35,237 nt of DNA, from the IMG/VR virus record IMGVR_UViG_3300042301_004321, positions 1 to 35,237 of that record; one strand, written 5' to 3'. The translations under genes and the position numbers were made by a program. The DNA comes from a virus. Under the pieces are notes generated by a model. That model made no database searches and had not been told where the DNA came from. It was given only the letters and a program-made list of their open reading frames with translations. Positions 9,978 through 25,191 of this stretch are shown here, one piece after another; positions within the stretch are counted from its first letter, which is position 1; each line of letters opens with the position of its first letter.

Positions 9978-10334
9978 ATGGATGCTAAACAATTCAAATC
10001 AGTTATTAAAGAAGCAGTTCGCGAAGCAGTTCGTGAAGAAATTGGCTTAATGTTATTGGAACAATTAAAAAGTGGAAATGCTGTACAAAGTAAACCACTT
10101 ACTGAAAATCGTTCATTATCATTTGATAGTGGGGATGTTCATAGTGTTGGAATGAGATCACAAGTTGGTAACAAAATGGCAGAAATGTTCGGAATGCCAG
10201 CAGGTGCTAAACCTCAATCAAAAAACCTACAAGTAGATCCAAATAGTGATAACCCATTTGCTGCTTTTATTAATGATACTGCTAATAACCTTAGTCCTCA
10301 AGAAATGAGACAAATGTTACAATCACAAGGATAA
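9978..10334 (+). CDS. Hypothetical virion-block protein, 118 aa
   Basis: The first ~32 residues (MDAKQFKSVIKEAVREAVRE, then EIGLMLLEQLK) are a strong amphipathic helix of the type (I/V)-R-E-E common at the start of T4-like virion-associated proteins. The rest is low-complexity, Asn/Ser/Pro-rich, ending NLSPQEMRQMLQSQ, a short helix. Function unknown; likely a small baseplate or assembly factor, because it is fused by a TAATG overlap to the gp25 gene. Confidence 0.7.
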   Translation: MDAKQFKSVIKEAVREAVREEIGLMLLEQLKSGNAVQSKPLTENRSLSFDSGDVHSVGMRSQVGNKMAEMFGMPAGAKPQSKNLQVDPNSDNPFAAFINDTANNLSPQEMRQMLQSQG

Positions 10335-10744
10335 TGCCTACACCAAGAATATATCGTGTTGATCCTAGAGATTTGCAAAAAAATATTGCAATTGGTCTTA
10401 GTATTCCTTTTAATAAGTTCTCTGCTTTTAAAAGCACGTATAGTACTAAAGAACAGGTAAAATATAATTTAATTAATCTTTTATTAACTAATAAAGGTGA
10501 AAGAGTTGAAAATCCTGAATTTGGTTGTGATATTAAAAAGTCTATATTTGATTTTATCAACACGGATAATATTAATAAAATTAATAATAACATAAGGGTT
10601 GGTGTACAAACATTTATACCTGAAATAAATTTAGAAAACGTAATCATTACCCCTGAACCAGATCAAAACTATGTAAATGTAAAAGTTGAATATAGTATGA
10701 GAATATCAGGAGAAGCGGATGAAATACAAATTAACTTTGAATAA
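10334..10744 (+). CDS. 25: Baseplate wedge subunit gp25-like, 136 aa
   Basis: The central signature NLINLLLTNKGERVENPEFG (residues ~46-65), followed by CDIKKSIFDFIN, is typical of gp25/GpW-gp25 family wedge proteins, and the C-terminal strands (VNVKVEYSMRISGEADEIQI) complete the fold. Length is close to T4 gp25 (132 aa). In T4, gp25 joins the (gp6)2-gp7 heterotrimer core and forms the start of the sheath; the next gene here is gp6, joined by a TAATG overlap, so stoichiometric coupling is likely. Old annotations call this family lysozyme-like, but it has no such activity that I would infer. Confidence 0.93.
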   Translation: MPTPRIYRVDPRDLQKNIAIGLSIPFNKFSAFKSTYSTKEQVKYNLINLLLTNKGERVENPEFGCDIKKSIFDFINTDNINKINNNIRVGVQTFIPEINLENVIITPEPDQNYVNVKVEYSMRISGEADEIQINFE

Positions 10745-12573
10745 TGTCTGAAACAAAAAACATATCGTATTTAAACAAAAGTTTTAGTGATTTTAAATCA
10801 ACTTTGATTAATCATGCTAAGACTTATTTCCCTACAGTACATAATGATTTTTCAGATGCATCACCAGGAATGATGTTTATTGAAATGGCTTCTTATGTAG
10901 GAGACGTTTTATCTTTTTATCTAGACACTCAATTCCAAGAAAATTTACTCTTATACACAAAAGAAAAAAGCAATGCTTTATCTTTAGCTTATGCTTTGGG
11001 GTATAGACCTAAAATGTCATATGCTTCATATGTTGATTTACAAATGTCTCAAAGAGTACCTTTGATTACAAATTTATTAAACAATACACAAATTCCAGAT
11101 AGTAATTATTATATGATAATTCCTGAGAATAGTGTTGTTGAAAGTATAAATGGTGTAAAATTTTTAACTACTGAATTGGTTGATTTTTCTAAAGAAGAAA
11201 ATAGAACTATATTCTTTGAAAACACAGGATTTGCTAGAGTTACAAAAACCGTAAAAGCAATCTCAGCAGAAATTAAAACAACTACTGTTGATTTTGGACA
11301 AACCCCACAAAAATTCACAAGTACTACTATATCTGATAATCGAATATTAAATATATTACAAGTAACCGATAGTACAAATGGAATTTGGTATGAAGTACCA
11401 TATTTAGCGCAACAAGGTATCCCACAAAGAGCAACAAACCCAACTTATAATACAGATTCTATTCCGTATTTATTAAGTTATATAGAATCACCTAAAAGAT
11501 TTGTTACTAGATTTAAAGAAAATGGCGATTTAGAATTACAATTTGGAGCAGGTATTAATTCATCTTCAGATTCTTCTATATTACCTAATCCAAATAATTT
11601 AAGTATTGGTATAGATGCTAACGTATATGACCCAGCTAATTCATTTAATAAAGCAACCGTAGTAACTACTAGAGAATATGGATTAGCACCAACAGGTGTT
11701 TTAACTATAAAATATCTTGTAGGTGGTGGTGTTGCTTCTAATATTTCATCTAATGAAATCGTAAATAGAAAGTTTAATTTAGCTGATATTACTTTTAATG
11801 GTAATGTAACATCTCCACAAAACACTGATATTTTTAATAGTATGATTATAACTAATCCTGAACCTGCGGTTGGGGGTAGAGATGAAGATACTGTTGAAGA
11901 AATTAGACAAAATACCCTTTATTCATTCTCTTCTCAAAATAGAGTAGTAACTAAAGAAGATTACATTAATAGAGTACTTAGCATGCCTAGTCATTTTGGT
12001 TCTGTAGCTAAAGTATATGCAATTAATGATTTTGCTCTATCTCAAAATTCAGGAAATGATCGTTTATTAGATAATAACCCACTATCTATTAGTTTATATA
12101 CTTTAGGATATAACGCTAATAAACAATTAATCATGCCATCTTCTGTATTAAAAAATAACATTAAAAATTATTTATCACAGTATAGAATGGCCACTGATGC
12201 TATTAATATTAAAAATGCTTATTATCTTAATATAGGTATTAATTTTGATATTTCTGTTTTACCAACGTTTAATAATAAAGAAGTATTAAGTAATTGTATA
12301 AAAGCATTAAAAGATAAATTTAGCATTGAAAATATGCAAATAAATAAACCATTAGTTATATCTGATGTAAATTCAACTTTATTACAAGTTAGAGGAGTTC
12401 AATCAATATCTAAGGTTGAAATTGTAAATAAATCTGGAGGTAATTATTCTCCATATAGCTATGATATTAATGGTGCTATTAGAAATAATATATTGTATCC
12501 TTCATTAGACCCATCTATATTTGAAATCAGATTCCCAGATATAGATATACAAGGAAGAATTGTAACTTTATAA
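10744..12573 (+). CDS. 6: Baseplate wedge subunit gp6-like, 609 aa
   Basis: The N-terminus has the hallmark DASPGMMFIEMASYVGDVLS (residues ~38-57) followed by FYLDTQFQENLLLYTKEKSN and LAYALGYRP, typical of T4 gp6 and the Baseplate_J family. PAVGGRDEDTVEEIRQNTLY and TKEDYINRVLSMPSHFGSVA (~375-420) form the conserved central J-like part, and the C-terminus includes a YLNIGINFDISVLPTF strand region. T4 gp6 is 660 aa, so the length fits. Two gp6 copies form the fastener of each wedge around gp25 and gp7. It lies immediately after gp25; the lysin gene follows 12 nt later. Confidence 0.93.
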   Translation: MSETKNISYLNKSFSDFKSTLINHAKTYFPTVHNDFSDASPGMMFIEMASYVGDVLSFYLDTQFQENLLLYTKEKSNALSLAYALGYRPKMSYASYVDLQMSQRVPLITNLLNNTQIPDSNYYMIIPENSVVESINGVKFLTTELVDFSKEENRTIFFENTGFARVTKTVKAISAEIKTTTVDFGQTPQKFTSTTISDNRILNILQVTDSTNGIWYEVPYLAQQGIPQRATNPTYNTDSIPYLLSYIESPKRFVTRFKENGDLELQFGAGINSSSDSSILPNPNNLSIGIDANVYDPANSFNKATVVTTREYGLAPTGVLTIKYLVGGGVASNISSNEIVNRKFNLADITFNGNVTSPQNTDIFNSMIITNPEPAVGGRDEDTVEEIRQNTLYSFSSQNRVVTKEDYINRVLSMPSHFGSVAKVYAINDFALSQNSGNDRLLDNNPLSISLYTLGYNANKQLIMPSSVLKNNIKNYLSQYRMATDAINIKNAYYLNIGINFDISVLPTFNNKEVLSNCIKALKDKFSIENMQINKPLVISDVNSTLLQVRGVQSISKVEIVNKSGGNYSPYSYDINGAIRNNILYPSLDPSIFEIRFPDIDIQGRIVTL

Positions 12574-19112: not shown

Positions 19113-19772
19113 ATGGCAATATTAAATCCTTCTTTTGTAACTGTCGATGCGGTTTTAACCAAAAAGGGCCGCGAACTGTTAGCTCGTAATGATGGCTCAT
19201 TCCAGATTACACAATTTTCATTAGCAGATGATGAAGTTGATTATACTCTATATAACCCAACTCATCCATCAGGCTCAGCATATTATGGTGAAGCAATCGA
19301 AGCTATGCCTATCATTGAAGCTTTCCCAGATGAAGCTCAAATTATGCGATATAAGTTAGTAACTTTACCAAGAGGTACAAGCAAAATGCCTGTTATTTCT
19401 TTAGGTTCTTCTTCAATAATTTTGAAACAAGGTGCTTCTTTAAGTATTACTCCTCAAACATTAAATTATCTAGGTGCAAATAGTACTTTTGAAACTAATG
19501 GATATGTAATGAGTGTTGCTGATGTTCGTTTAGTTTCTACTTTTAGAGGTGCTGGTATTACTGGTGCTACTGTAGGTACTAACACATTAAATACAACAAG
19601 TGGTACTAAATTATCTAAAGCAGAAATTGGTACTTCATTCACATTAACTGGAACTACAATTAATACATTATTTGGTACTACTGCCACTTCATTAACTACT
19701 ACAATTACTGTAACTGGTAGAGATAGTGGTTCTAGAATTACAGTTCCTTTAATCATTCAAAAAGTTAATTAA
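19113..19772 (+). CDS. Conserved T4-like structural protein (VDAVLTKKGRELLAR), 219 aa
   Basis: The N-terminal ~90 residues, including VDAVLTKKGRELLARNDGSF, SLADDEVDYTLYNPTHPSGS and a YGEAIEAMPIIEAFPDEAQ stretch, are highly characteristic of a protein I recall beside tail fibre genes in marine T4-like phages, annotated only as structural. The C-terminal part is Thr/Gly/Ser-rich beta with an Ig-like look (VMSVADVRLVSTF, then TTTITVTGRDSGSRI). It probably forms an adaptor between baseplate and fibre. It leads a run of four consecutive fibre-type genes under motif L5. Confidence 0.8.
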   Translation: MAILNPSFVTVDAVLTKKGRELLARNDGSFQITQFSLADDEVDYTLYNPTHPSGSAYYGEAIEAMPIIEAFPDEAQIMRYKLVTLPRGTSKMPVISLGSSSIILKQGASLSITPQTLNYLGANSTFETNGYVMSVADVRLVSTFRGAGITGATVGTNTLNTTSGTKLSKAEIGTSFTLTGTTINTLFGTTATSLTTTITVTGRDSGSRITVPLIIQKVN

Positions 19773-19779
19773 TTAACAT

Positions 19780-20736
19780 ATGTCATTTAATAGATACAAC
19801 ACAGAAGATTCAGTAATAAGCTCAGAAACCGTAGTACGTGGTTTATGGAGTGGAGATAGTGCTACACTTTCAGCCGTAGCTACTTCATCAACTCAAGCAG
19901 CTGCTTCAAAATTTTATTTAGACGTATACAATGCAGGTGAAGTAGCATTTTCTATTGAATATGCACATATTTCTGGTTCAGGCTCAACTTATTTTAATTC
20001 AAGTGTAACTAGTTCTACTTCTACTAAAGTTGTATATGGACAATATAGAAACCTAATTTATGGTAGTGAAGAAGCAACTTTTCAAATTGGAGGTTCTACT
20101 GTAAGTCAATTTTATGTAATTAACGTAGCAAGATCTCGATACAAAGAATCTTTACATCCTGGTTCTTTAACCTTAGCATTAAGTGGAAGTTCTGGAATTA
20201 TTTCTTTAACAGATAATAGCACTGTTTTAACTACTAGTCAATTTATTGATAGTAATAGATATTTTAATATTGTTAGTGGATCTGCAGGAACACCTGCTAA
20301 TACAACAGTATATGGTCATATGTTCCCTGATTTAGGTTTAATCGTTCTGAATCCAGGTGCATTAACAGGATTTATGACAGCTCCTGCTGTAACAACAAAC
20401 ACTTACGAAAACAATAATGCTAAATTATATACTTCTATATTAGGTGCTACAACAGCTGGAAGATTATTTAGATTACAATCATCTGAAACTATTTCATCAC
20501 GTTTCTTCTTTACAAGAATTAAGAACAGTGAATATAATTATACTTCGAATCCATCAATTATTGATAGTAAAGGCAATATTCTTTATACTACATTAATTGA
20601 TAATCCACAAACTTATATCACAACTGTAGGGTTATATAACGATAATAATGAATTATTAGCAGTTGCTAAATTAAGCAAACCATTAGTAAAAGACTTTACT
20701 AAAGAAGCATTAATTCGTATTAAGTTAGACTACTAA
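19780..20736 (+). CDS. Tail-fibre-region structural protein, 318 aa
   Basis: The N-terminal part (RYNTEDSVISSETVVRGLWS, about residues 5-24) and the long beta-rich middle with many Ser/Thr are typical of fibre-associated proteins. The last ~75 residues form a separate module: FFTRIKNSEYNYTSNPS, then YITTVGLYNDNNELLAVAKL and IRIKLDY. The same module forms the whole second half of the 102-aa protein at 24883, so it is probably a common docking or folding unit. Starts seven bases after the previous stop; late and cotranscribed with its neighbours. Confidence 0.78.
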   Translation: MSFNRYNTEDSVISSETVVRGLWSGDSATLSAVATSSTQAAASKFYLDVYNAGEVAFSIEYAHISGSGSTYFNSSVTSSTSTKVVYGQYRNLIYGSEEATFQIGGSTVSQFYVINVARSRYKESLHPGSLTLALSGSSGIISLTDNSTVLTTSQFIDSNRYFNIVSGSAGTPANTTVYGHMFPDLGLIVLNPGALTGFMTAPAVTTNTYENNNAKLYTSILGATTAGRLFRLQSSETISSRFFFTRIKNSEYNYTSNPSIIDSKGNILYTTLIDNPQTYITTVGLYNDNNELLAVAKLSKPLVKDFTKEALIRIKLDY

Positions 20737-20756: not shown

Positions 20757-23700
20757 ATGGCATCATTCAAAAAACTGAGTACTCCAGACGTATTCGTTGT
20801 TCCGTATACAGCTAATAAAAACTGGGACCTTGATTTCGCTTGTGTTCCTCAGGATGGTGCTTACTTTACTATATTCAAGGGTAAAAATATAACTGGTAGT
20901 ATTGATTTAGTTAATGGTCCTATAACTGAAGGTCAATATGAATCTTTAGTTTATCGCCAAATAAATCACTTATATTACCAATATCATTCTTCCAGCATTC
21001 TTAATTCTCATTCATTATTAGATTCATTATATTATGAGTCTTATATGACAGAATCTAGTACAATTTCTACTAGTTCTTATTTTGATTTTAATGAGAATCC
21101 ATCATTTGTAAATAATTTTCCTACTTCATCTAACGATATTATTAGAGTAATGTCGTTTAATCAAAACATTTACGGTGAACAAATAAAACCTAATAACTTT
21201 ATATTAACAGCAAGTGGTAGTTATCAACTAGCTGATGATGGATTAGGAAATATATATGATATCTCTTTTACAGGATATTATGTACAACCTGGCTATTATG
21301 CTCCTCCGGGATATATTGCTGAATTACAAAATAAAGTTCATGTAGGAAATATATTTTATTCTCAAGGTTTAGTAGTAATAACAAATCAAAACTATAAATG
21401 TTTTTTACCTACTCCCCCTAATGCTATAAATGATTATTTTAGAGTATTAAACGTACAGAGAGTTAAAAAATTAGATATTTTAGCTAATGACTATATTGAT
21501 AGTTGTAATTCTACAGCTCTTGCTACTGGCTCAGTAGTCACATATCCTTATACAGGATATAGTTTTCCTGATGTTACTTTAATTACAGGTTCTCTTTTTG
21601 TAGATGAATGTGAAACTTTAGGAGTAACACCAGGTAATTATAAATTATATTATACTGTAAATGATAATACTTGTTTAAAAAGCAATACCGCTAGTATTGA
21701 TTTAGAACTTTATAAATTACCTTTAGAAATATCCCAATCAGCATACCAATCAATTGTTTGTACTGGGGGAGTTTCTGCTGTGAATTTTTCAATAAATTAT
21801 GGTGTTCCTCCTTATCAATATTCATTAGGTGGAGGAACTTACAACAATTTACCTAACTGTGATTGGTACCAACCAACAGCATCAATTAATGCTCCTATTG
21901 GTAATAATATTTTTTACGTAAAAGATAGTGAAGGAACAATAGTTTCTAAATCCTTTACTGTATCTGCAAATATATTCACTGTTACAACTAATAAAACTGA
22001 TATAACTTGTGGTGGGGCGGGTGATGGAAAAATAGCAGTTACTGGATCTTCTACTTATGGAGCTCCATATTCTGCCTCTATAAATGGTGGATCTAGTTGG
22101 AATGGTTTTACTACTAATACTTTATTTTCAAACTTAACACCAGCTACTTATACAGTAACTGTAAAAGATAATTTATGTAGTACTTCATCTTTAGTTACTA
22201 TTACTCAACCAACCCCAATATCAGTTACTATTAATTCAACAACATCAGATTGTCCTGAACCAGGTCAAGATGTTGGATCTATTAGTATAACTGTTTCTGG
22301 AGGTACATCTCCTTATACTTATTCTTGGGTTACAGGTTCTACTCAAGTAAGAACCGTAGAAGATCCAACAGGTTTACCTGCGGGTTCATATACAGTAACT
22401 GTAACTGATGCTAATAATTGTACTGCTACAGGTAGTGCTACAATTAGTTCTACTAATCTTATTTCTATAGTATTAACTCCAACGGGTGAAACTTGTGGAA
22501 ATGGAGCAGGCTCTATTAGTGCCACAGTAACAGGTGGAAGTGGTAATGGATTTACTTATTCTTGGAATACAAACCCAATTAGAACAACAAAAGATATTAG
22601 TGGGTTAGGAAGCGGTACTTATACTTTAACTGTAACTGATACAGGTACAGGATGTACATCTTCTGGAAGTGCAACAGTTACATCAACACCAGGAATATCT
22701 TCAGTAAGTGCTTCTGTTACTTATAATCAATGTGATAGTAGTTTAGTAATTACAGCTACTGGAGGAACAGCACCTTATACATTTGTAGCAGTAAATGGAG
22801 GAACTACAAGATCAGTAGGTCCTACTACTAGCCCAGGTACTATTGTTTTAAATAGTGGATTAGCTGGTGGTACATGGAATATTACAGTAGCAGATGCTAA
22901 TGGATGTACAGCAACAACAACTAGAGCAGTAAGAGCTAGAGAATATAGATACACAGATCCAGTTTGTCAAGAATTAAATGCTGTTATTTTAATTGATGAA
23001 TCTAAGGGAGTTGGAACTAATCTTAAAGTTAAAGGAAGTGGTCAAGATATAACTACATTATTCTCAACAGCAGCAAATTATATCCAAATGCATAATGGAA
23101 CTTCATATTCTTTTGAAGCACCTTTATATCCACCAGCAGATCCAGGATGGGTTGGAAATTATGCTTCTGCTTCTCATACAATGTCTGTTTATACTACAGG
23201 TTCATTAACATTTACAACTTCTAGTATTGAAACAGGAAGTGCTTATTGGCCATTCTATAGTTTAACAGGAAATTCAAGTAGATATTATTTAATTAAAGCA
23301 GAAGCTAATTTAGTAGTTGCTCCGAGCCCAAGTCCGTCTCCGAGCCCAAGTCCGTCTCCGAGTCCGAGCCCGTCTCCGAGCCCAAGTCCTTCTCCAAGTC
23401 CGACATGTGTAACATCAGTAAATTTTGAAGTTAACACTGCGGGTAACGTTAGTTATTTGGATTGTTGTGAACAAGCCGTAGTTGGATTTTATGGTATTGG
23501 GCCACAAGTTATTAATGGTTGTATTAAAAATGGCACATTGGCTGGTGCTGGTGCTACTATATCAGATATTTCATATAATAGTACTTCTTGTAATTGTAGC
23601 CCGAGCCCGTCTCCGAGTCCATCTCCGAGCCCAAGCCCAAGTCCTTCTCCAAGTCCGAGCCCGTCTCCAAACCCGGCCCCAGTATATTATTATATTTTAA

Positions 23701-24023
23701 ATAAATGTGATAATTCAGGTACAGTAATTGGTAGAAGTTCTAGTAATGCTTTATTAAGTGAAATTAATTTAGTTTATGTACTCACTGGTACTACATGTGC
23801 TACTCTTAGTAGTTTTGATAATGACAATAACGGTACTTTTGATTATGCCTTAGATGGTTTAACTCCATTATCAGATTGTAATGCTTCAGCTTGCCAATCA
23901 GGAGGTTCAGGTAGCCCAGGAGGGGGAGGTAGCCCAGGAGGAATAGGTGGACCACCTCCAGAAAGCCCACCAAGTCCTCCAAGTGGTGGTGGTGGAGGTG
24001 ATGATGAATTGACACCAGGATAA
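20757..24023 (+). CDS. Modular fibre/adhesin with SprB-like repeats and Pro-Ser linkers, 1088 aa
   Basis: Order of parts: an N-terminal domain (~1-320; KLSTPDVFVVPYTANKNWDL) likely attaches to the virion. About five SprB/PKD-like repeats follow (~321-724), each ending with a pattern such as GSYTVTVTDANNCTATGSA and containing GGTSPYTYSW-like turns. Then comes a globular segment, (PS)13P (~856-882), a Cys-rich ~65-aa module (TCVTSVNFEVNTAGNVSYLD...), (SP)12 (~948-971), a further module with a Ca-loop-like DNDNNGTFD (~1021-1029), and a Gly/Pro/Ser-rich tail. SprB repeats are known from flavobacterial gliding adhesins. The modular plan and repeat linkers point to a host-range determinant. Late gene, 20 nt after the previous stop. 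Confidence 0.82.
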   Translation: MASFKKLSTPDVFVVPYTANKNWDLDFACVPQDGAYFTIFKGKNITGSIDLVNGPITEGQYESLVYRQINHLYYQYHSSSILNSHSLLDSLYYESYMTESSTISTSSYFDFNENPSFVNNFPTSSNDIIRVMSFNQNIYGEQIKPNNFILTASGSYQLADDGLGNIYDISFTGYYVQPGYYAPPGYIAELQNKVHVGNIFYSQGLVVITNQNYKCFLPTPPNAINDYFRVLNVQRVKKLDILANDYIDSCNSTALATGSVVTYPYTGYSFPDVTLITGSLFVDECETLGVTPGNYKLYYTVNDNTCLKSNTASIDLELYKLPLEISQSAYQSIVCTGGVSAVNFSINYGVPPYQYSLGGGTYNNLPNCDWYQPTASINAPIGNNIFYVKDSEGTIVSKSFTVSANIFTVTTNKTDITCGGAGDGKIAVTGSSTYGAPYSASINGGSSWNGFTTNTLFSNLTPATYTVTVKDNLCSTSSLVTITQPTPISVTINSTTSDCPEPGQDVGSISITVSGGTSPYTYSWVTGSTQVRTVEDPTGLPAGSYTVTVTDANNCTATGSATISSTNLISIVLTPTGETCGNGAGSISATVTGGSGNGFTYSWNTNPIRTTKDISGLGSGTYTLTVTDTGTGCTSSGSATVTSTPGISSVSASVTYNQCDSSLVITATGGTAPYTFVAVNGGTTRSVGPTTSPGTIVLNSGLAGGTWNITVADANGCTATTTRAVRAREYRYTDPVCQELNAVILIDESKGVGTNLKVKGSGQDITTLFSTAANYIQMHNGTSYSFEAPLYPPADPGWVGNYASASHTMSVYTTGSLTFTTSSIETGSAYWPFYSLTGNSSRYYLIKAEANLVVAPSPSPSPSPSPSPSPSPSPSPSPSPSPTCVTSVNFEVNTAGNVSYLDCCEQAVVGFYGIGPQVINGCIKNGTLAGAGATISDISYNSTSCNCSPSPSPSPSPSPSPSPSPSPSPSPNPAPVYYYILNKCDNSGTVIGRSSSNALLSEINLVYVLTGTTCATLSSFDNDNNGTFDYALDGLTPLSDCNASACQSGGSGSPGGGGSPGGIGGPPPESPPSPPSGGGGGDDELTPG
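23322..23402 (+). repeat. Pro-Ser coding tandem repeat, array 1
   Basis: 27 codons alternate Pro and Ser (CCG/CCA/CCT and AGC/AGT/TCT) with an 18-bp higher-order unit resembling CCGAGCCCAAGTCCGTCT. The segment is conspicuously GC-rich against its surroundings. Confidence 0.93.
23598..23669 (+). repeat. Pro-Ser coding tandem repeat, array 2
   Basis: 24 codons of (Ser-Pro)12, about 195 bp after array 1 and sharing a run of more than 20 identical bases with its end. It ends in Asn-Pro-Ala-Pro. Recombination between the arrays would remove or swap the Cys-rich module between them in frame. Confidence 0.92.
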
Positions 24024-24882: not shown

Positions 24883-25191
24883 ATGGCAGTTTATACAGGA
24901 TCGTTTAATATTAATTTTAGAAATGAACATACAGTTTACGAAAATTTTGTAAAATGTACTGTTGAGGAAAGTGAATATAATTTATCTTATAATCCTACTT
25001 TGCTATCTGATAAAACTAACGTATCATCATCATTGGCTGGTTTTACAACAGGTTCTGATTTTAAACCATATGTTACAACATTAGGTTTATATAATGAACA
25101 AAATGAACTTTTAATGGTTGCAAAATTTGGAAAACCAATCCCCATTTCATCAGAAACAGATATGACGTTTTTGGTGAAATACGACACATAA
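24883..25191 (+). CDS. Fibre-region module protein, 102 aa
   Basis: The second half, VEESEYNLSYNPTLLSD then YVTTLGLYNEQNELLMVAKF, GKPIPISSETDMTFLVKYD, aligns with the C-terminal module of the 318-aa protein at 19780 (NSEYNYTSNPS, YITTVGLYNDNNELLAVAKL, KPLV...IRIKLDY). The N-terminal ~35 residues (YTGSFNINFRNEHTVYENFV) also read as strands. It is therefore a free-standing copy of that module and likely occupies an equivalent binding site, or works as an assembly partner for fibres. It closes the structural block. Confidence 0.76.
   Translation: MAVYTGSFNINFRNEHTVYENFVKCTVEESEYNLSYNPTLLSDKTNVSSSLAGFTTGSDFKPYVTTLGLYNEQNELLMVAKFGKPIPISSETDMTFLVKYDT

Follow-up and report, generated by a model that had tools for sequence, protein, structure and literature searches.

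SprB-type adhesin repeats in a probable adsorption fibre of a T4-like phage related to Flavobacterium phage immuto

Organization of the fibre locus

The window, which is the whole 35,237-base virus record analysed here (IMG/VR IMGVR_UViG_3300042301_004321), contains an ORF of 1088 aa at positions 20757-24023 on the + strand within a tail and baseplate module. Genes for gp25-like and gp6-like baseplate wedge proteins and an endolysin are located upstream of this ORF, and a GIY-YIG gene, a primase and an exonuclease are located downstream. The features of the locus are as follows.

10334-12573, + strand: gp25-like and gp6-like genes of the baseplate wedge, markers of the structural module
19113-19772, + strand: 219-aa conserved structural-module protein, homologue of immuto gp107 and query for collecting related loci
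19780-20736, + strand: 318-aa protein, homologue of immuto gp106, with a C-terminal domain resembling the 102-aa ORF
20757-24023, + strand: fibre gene, comprising anchor, Ig-like domain, SprB-type repeats, conserved domain, Pro/Ser linkers and exchangeable tip
20757-21404, + strand: N-terminal anchor, residues 1-216, homologous to the N-terminal part of a structural protein of ~300 aa (immuto gp105; L121, L124 and others)
21405-21725, + strand: Ig/cadherin-like domain (fold by inspection), residues 217-323, with 'NDYFRVLN..ILANDY', just past the break point
21726-21968, + strand: repeat r1, degenerate, residues 324-404; 10.9 bits with the bacterial profile, marginal
21975-22208, + strand: SprB-type repeat r2, residues 407-484, Cys418/Cys474; 31.3 bits
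22212-22451, + strand: SprB-type repeat r3, residues 486-565, Cys499/Cys555; 84.9 bits, the best match
22467-22685, + strand: SprB-type repeat r4, residues 571-643, Cys580/Cys633; 51.9 bits
22698-22931, + strand: SprB-type repeat r5, residues 648-725, Cys659/Cys717; 41.1 bits
22938-23327, + strand: domain kept in the window clade ('RAREYRYTDPVCQELN...'), residues 728-857; dN/dS 0.40
23328-24020, + strand: Pro/Ser-repeat linkers and C-terminal module, residues 858-1088, with unrelated sequence instead in L005/L008 and in L010
24046-24861, + strand: 271-aa ORF, probable second small adhesin, conserved in its N-terminal part to about residue 155
24883-25191, + strand: 102-aa ORF, a detached domain that forms the C-terminal end of the same protein to whose N-terminal part the fibre anchor corresponds

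Among cultured phages, the closest is Flavobacterium phage vB_FspM_immuto (Immutovirus), which is syntenic with the window in the structural module and shows 32-68% identity in core and structural genes, including the gp6-like wedge protein (44%), the 219-aa protein (68%) and the exonuclease (57%), while weaker matches are to a Microcystis phage and a Rhodothermus phage. This synteny makes a Bacteroidota host likely, and the phage is probably a T4-like myovirus infecting members of this phylum. At the position of the fibre, immuto has gp105 followed by annotated tail fibre and tail spike genes, and two differences are apparent: immuto combines the anchor and the 102-aa domain in the single gene gp105, whereas these are split in the window, and the fibres and spikes of immuto are separate genes, unlike the arrangement seen here. 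The SprB-type repeat was not found in the immuto genome. The 1088-aa ORF was originally predicted to encode a phage fibre protein, and this is very probable given its location downstream of the gp25- and gp6-like genes, its synteny with the fibre and spike genes of immuto, and its combination of a conserved anchor with an exchanged C-terminal part.

Repeats of the SprB subtype

A 77-position profile built from 1264 bacterial SprB-type domains only identifies five domains in the phage protein, at residues 324-725, of which four are clear (r2-r5, 31-85 bits) and r1 is marginal, and the same profile finds zero domains in 200 shuffles of the repeat region. The original prediction of about five repeats at residues ~321-724 is thus correct to within a few residues, but the motifs on which it was based, GGTSPYTYSW and GSYTVTVTDANNC, occur in exact form only once each, in r3, with variants in the other repeats, so that a description of five repeats with these patterns is slightly generous. 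Each of the r2-r5 repeats contains two cysteines, 53-58 residues apart, that are invariant in six phages. At the DNA level the repeat copies have diverged, and just one segment, of 36 nt, is shared: it occurs three times, spaced 240 and 231 nt apart.

The Pfam SprB family PF13573, a model of 37 residues that takes its name from SprB, the gliding adhesin of Flavobacterium johnsoniae, scores 34.2 bits over the whole fibre protein vs a cut-off of 28 (best single stretch 30.9), and the cut-off is also passed in six relatives. No PKD family of Pfam is above cut-off in the fibre protein, and the comparison of SprB with generic PKD/Ig profiles that had been proposed as a check is thereby decided for SprB. 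The fibre shares with SprB repeats the profile match, the paired cysteines, a period of ~80 residues and the tandem array. The GGTSPYTYSW motif by itself does not prove SprB type, as the unrelated phage tail protein L033 carries it yet matches a PKD family, stays below the SprB cut-off and scores 18.7 bits against the profile of bacterial repeats. With that profile a decoration domain of the T5 type, which lacks the cysteines, scores 37.5 bits. When phage and bacterial repeats are combined in one profile, it also detects Hoc, a neck-whisker protein and the grappling hook of Aureispira; SprB repeats are therefore regarded as one branch of a broad Ig-like family, in which the comparisons support a placement of the phage repeats closer to the SprB subtype than to PKD or other Ig families.

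Ig-like modules are familiar on virions, where the Hoc protein, the T5-type decoration protein and the BACON/PKD adhesins of gut phages (PMC13370021) show profile-level kinship to the repeats of the window. These proteins are of generic Ig, PKD or BACON types, in contrast to the SprB subtype found here between an anchor and a swappable tip, and SprB is not mentioned in the cited account. A related cellular example is GhpA (Grappling hook protein A) of Aureispira, a long Ig-repeat adhesin of Bacteroidota that gives a weak profile match and is the best structural match of a low-confidence model of the repeats; it differs in being thousands of residues long and not of phage origin. An alternative is that the protein decorates the head or neck in the manner of Hoc or a whisker rather than the baseplate, and the best PDB sequence matches (the T5-type decoration protein and the neck-whisker protein) and a weak PHROG match to Hoc-like proteins point in this direction. 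These matches are explained by the common Ig fold alone, no head protein matches the N-terminal anchor, and the gene follows the baseplate genes at the position of the tail fibre and spike genes of immuto, making a head or neck location unlikely. As profile and PDB searches gave no identifying PHROG or PDB match for the anchor, the assignment of the attachment site rests on gene order, and residues 1-216 would most likely fix the fibre to the virion at the baseplate.

A structural gene probably opened at a fixed point

Immuto gp105 is matched at its N-terminus by residues 1-103 of the fibre and at its C-terminus by the 102-aa ORF at 24883-25191. The conserved 219-aa neighbour served to collect 80 viral loci, some of them contig fragments. 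A single ORF of 269-374 aa (~300 aa) holds both the anchor and the 102-aa domain in 38 loci, and in 17 loci, plus the window, adhesin sequence lies between an ORF with the anchor and another with the domain of ~100 aa; 23 of the collected loci were assigned to neither the fused nor the split arrangement. The junction lies just after a conserved 'ITNQ(D/N/S)YQ', and the sequences lying there are diverse, including SprB-type arrays (the window clade, L149, L161 and L170), Thr/Pro/Ser-rich linkers and 'NMSSMF' repeats, the last of which we take to resemble BspA-like repeats. The Ig/cadherin-like domain at residues 217-323 shows 39-44% identity to L149, L161 and L170.

Parsimony favours derivation of the split state from a fused gene of ~300 aa. 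Adhesin sequence would have come to lie at a fixed point of this structural gene, and its C-terminal domain would have been left as the separate downstream 102-aa ORF. The unsplit protein L124 gives a good structure model (pLDDT 77) with no PDB structure match, and the viral structure matches of this model include proteins named lectin-like and laminin-G-like, which is in line with sugar-binding modules at the break point. It is possible, at somewhat less than even odds, that the collected loci represent a family of Bacteroidota-infecting myoviruses with a dedicated fibre-cassette site, in which a small structural protein has been opened at one fixed point, its C-terminal domain kept as a separate gene of ~100 aa, and whole adhesin arms, partly host-derived, exchanged as SprB-type arrays, Thr/Pro/Ser-rich linkers or BspA-like repeats, with both halves still co-assembling on the virion. 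The split ~100-aa domain offers a precise genomic marker for locating receptor-binding genes in the poorly known phages of Bacteroidota. A further fibre, encoded at L163:12396-16184, contains hundreds of residues of 'TPSISISKTPS'-like low complexity where the window has SprB repeats.

Shaft, tip and rates of evolution

Rates of evolution increase along the fibre in a comparison of six relatives, with dN/dS values of 0.10 in the anchor, 0.16 in the mid part, 0.25 in r1-r2, 0.26 in r3, 0.39 in r4-r5 and 0.40 at residues 728-850. Past residue ~858 the sequence is replaced altogether: the window, L006 and L009 have one module, with Pro/Ser linkers, L005 and L008 have another, and L010 has a third. 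The next ORF, of 271 aa, likewise combines a conserved N-terminal part with a C-terminal part that is swapped among relatives. The rate gradient and the replacement of the tip are as would be expected for a fibre whose base is fixed and whose receptor-binding end can be exchanged, and the C-terminal module past the Pro/Ser linkers would be the receptor-binding tip that is swapped between close relatives. T4-like long tail fibres are similarly composed of a conserved anchor, a shaft and an exchangeable distal receptor-binding part; their shafts are fibrous trimers made with dedicated chaperones, unlike the shaft of Ig-like domains in the window, whose gene is also split from its C-terminal partner domain.

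The SprB array is best read as a shaft or stalk because other phages have low-complexity linkers at the same place, and weak adhesion could occur in addition. The Ig-like domain and the four to five SprB-type repeats may form a stiff or extensible shaft in which each repeat is probably locked by one disulfide. The full-length model of the fibre is poor (pLDDT 35.5), only parts of residues 487-726 exceeding 50, and the low-confidence model of the repeats matches, after the grappling-hook protein, other Ig-repeat adhesins, with the central fibre of the T5 tail tip also listed. A different role is that the repeats are themselves adhesive, like Hoc and other phage Ig-like adhesins, with weak binding of glycan, capsule or matrix raising the encounter rate and the tip giving specificity. 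Adherence mediated by Ig-like domain proteins of phages has been demonstrated (PMC13370021), the repeats are related to Hoc and decoration proteins at profile level, and the faster evolution of r4-r5 than of the anchor could mean that the repeats bind something variable. The Thr/Pro/Ser-rich linkers at the same place in other phages argue for a spacer role instead, and a ligand-binding site is not identifiable in the repeats, leaving this alternative a serious but less probable one. Taken together, an adsorption fibre with an anchored base, an SprB-type shaft and a swapped tip, encoded by a gene split by adhesin sequence, is the preferred explanation, to which we assign a probability of about 0.7.

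Origin of the repeats

In a pattern-limited genome scan, the nearest bacterial loci among the matches listed are all (78/78) from Bacteroidota or close relatives, one being from Chlorobiota and one from Kapaibacterium, with identities among these matches of up to 67% over part of r3. The module is therefore probably host-derived, from surface-adhesin genes, and the transfer would have proceeded from host adhesin to phage. The SprB-type array would be one of several shafts used at the break point, and the fibre an example of host-type adhesin repeats serving as building material for a phage. The suggestion that the repeats were captured from a host is thus likely with regard to their source, given that the nearest listed relatives are surface proteins of Bacteroidota, and is left without a date, as a phylogeny of phage and host repeats (173 repeats, 77 columns) has branching too poorly supported to name the donor or to time the transfer.

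Convergence would offer another explanation, in which GG..PYTYSW...G.YTVTVTD is a general Ig-like solution that was not taken from Bacteroidota. The 37.5-bit score of the T5-type decoration domain, and the presence of GGTSPYTYSW in L033 despite the PKD-type repeats of that protein, are consistent with such an origin. It is made improbable by the 84.9-bit score of r3, the paired cysteines, the period of 75-80 residues and the restriction of the nearest listed loci to the Bacteroidota group. A recent tandem duplication within the phage was also considered and is not favoured, because neighbouring repeats have low identity (32-47%) and each repeat has a bacterial match that is at least as good, in a comparison biased toward bacterial matches by a bacterial repeat set far larger than the phage set.

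Relation to gliding motility

The original prediction held that the repeats could bind the partners of SprB or let the phage ride on the gliding machinery. The C-terminal 368 aa of SprB bind the carrier SprF, and fusion to this region alone is enough for sfGFP to be propelled along the cell (PMC9143113), with SprF in turn disulfide-linked to the GldK track (PMC12635249). Unlike SprB, the fibre has no signal peptide, no T9SS sorting domain, a virion-type anchor and 4-5 repeats only: its N-terminus (MASFKKLSTPDVF) is by inspection not a signal peptide, none of CHU_C, TIGR04131 and Por_Secre_tail passes its cut-off, and TIGR04183 reaches 16.6 bits vs a cut-off of 23 with a match that falls inside a repeat. 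The ORFs neighbouring the fibre match phage families or nothing, and a gene of the sprF/PorP family is not apparent among them in searches run without a PorP profile.

PF13573 is spread over many ORFs in three Flavobacterium genomes, in which the probable gliding SprB was identified by position only, as a repeat region of ~20 kb ending beside a gene of the SprF family. Against phage r2-r5, the repeats of this region give 54, 49, 50 and 50 bits, compared with 53, 72, 52 and 50 bits for the best other SprB-repeat protein; the 72-bit match of r3 lies in a protein without a nearby SprF-family gene. The phage repeats, judged by these scores, have no special closeness to the gliding SprB in Flavobacterium. 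A connection with gliding is made conceivable by the truly SprB-type nature of the repeats and by F. columnare, in which phage resistance accompanies the loss of gliding (PMC7345892). Motor coupling, by contrast, uses a C-terminal region of SprB (PMC9143113) that is absent from the fibre, the repeats have no special similarity to the gliding protein (49 vs 72 bits for r3), and the phage transport described in the cited literature is that of lambda, which is carried by gliding swarms along the fluid flow with no need for binding (PMC10434198). The gliding link is rejected on the lack of a T9SS tail, the literature on SprB coupling and the comparison with probable SprB genes, and we regard it as highly improbable. 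The Pfam name 'SprB' does not imply gliding, and a tempting inference is thereby corrected.

As a separate observation, PF13573 is distributed over at least 10 ORFs in the Flavobacterium genome G009 (the genome behind L052), where it is not the probable gliding SprB that gives the strongest Pfam matches but proteins whose genes have no SprF-family gene nearby.

Other SprB-repeat proteins on phage or virus-classed contigs

A literature search for phage proteins with SprB repeats turned up no relevant account, the one paper naming both being on an unrelated subject. A second phage lineage with SprB-type repeats is represented by L029/L031:5407-7668 (IMG/VR contigs of up to 304 kb), where a 753-aa ORF with about six such repeats and no signal peptide stands among large ORFs without a PHROG match. 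Proteins of another kind combine SprB repeats with an apparent signal sequence and a T9SS sorting domain, of type A at L026:3193-8733 and type B at L027:4861-6663, both on virus-classed contigs. The protein at L011:5217-10229, in a 642-kb 'uncultured phage' record (LR756502.1), is 1670 aa long; it carries 13-14 SprB repeats together with an apparent signal sequence and a T9SS sorting domain of type B, and would be a host-secreted SprB-like surface adhesin if LR756502.1 is truly a phage. At the end of one phage contig, the ORF at L005:15170-16738 starts like a secreted outer-membrane receptor (MKKAILSLILSVSVLMGFGQ...) and is either a carried host gene or the product of a chimeric assembly.
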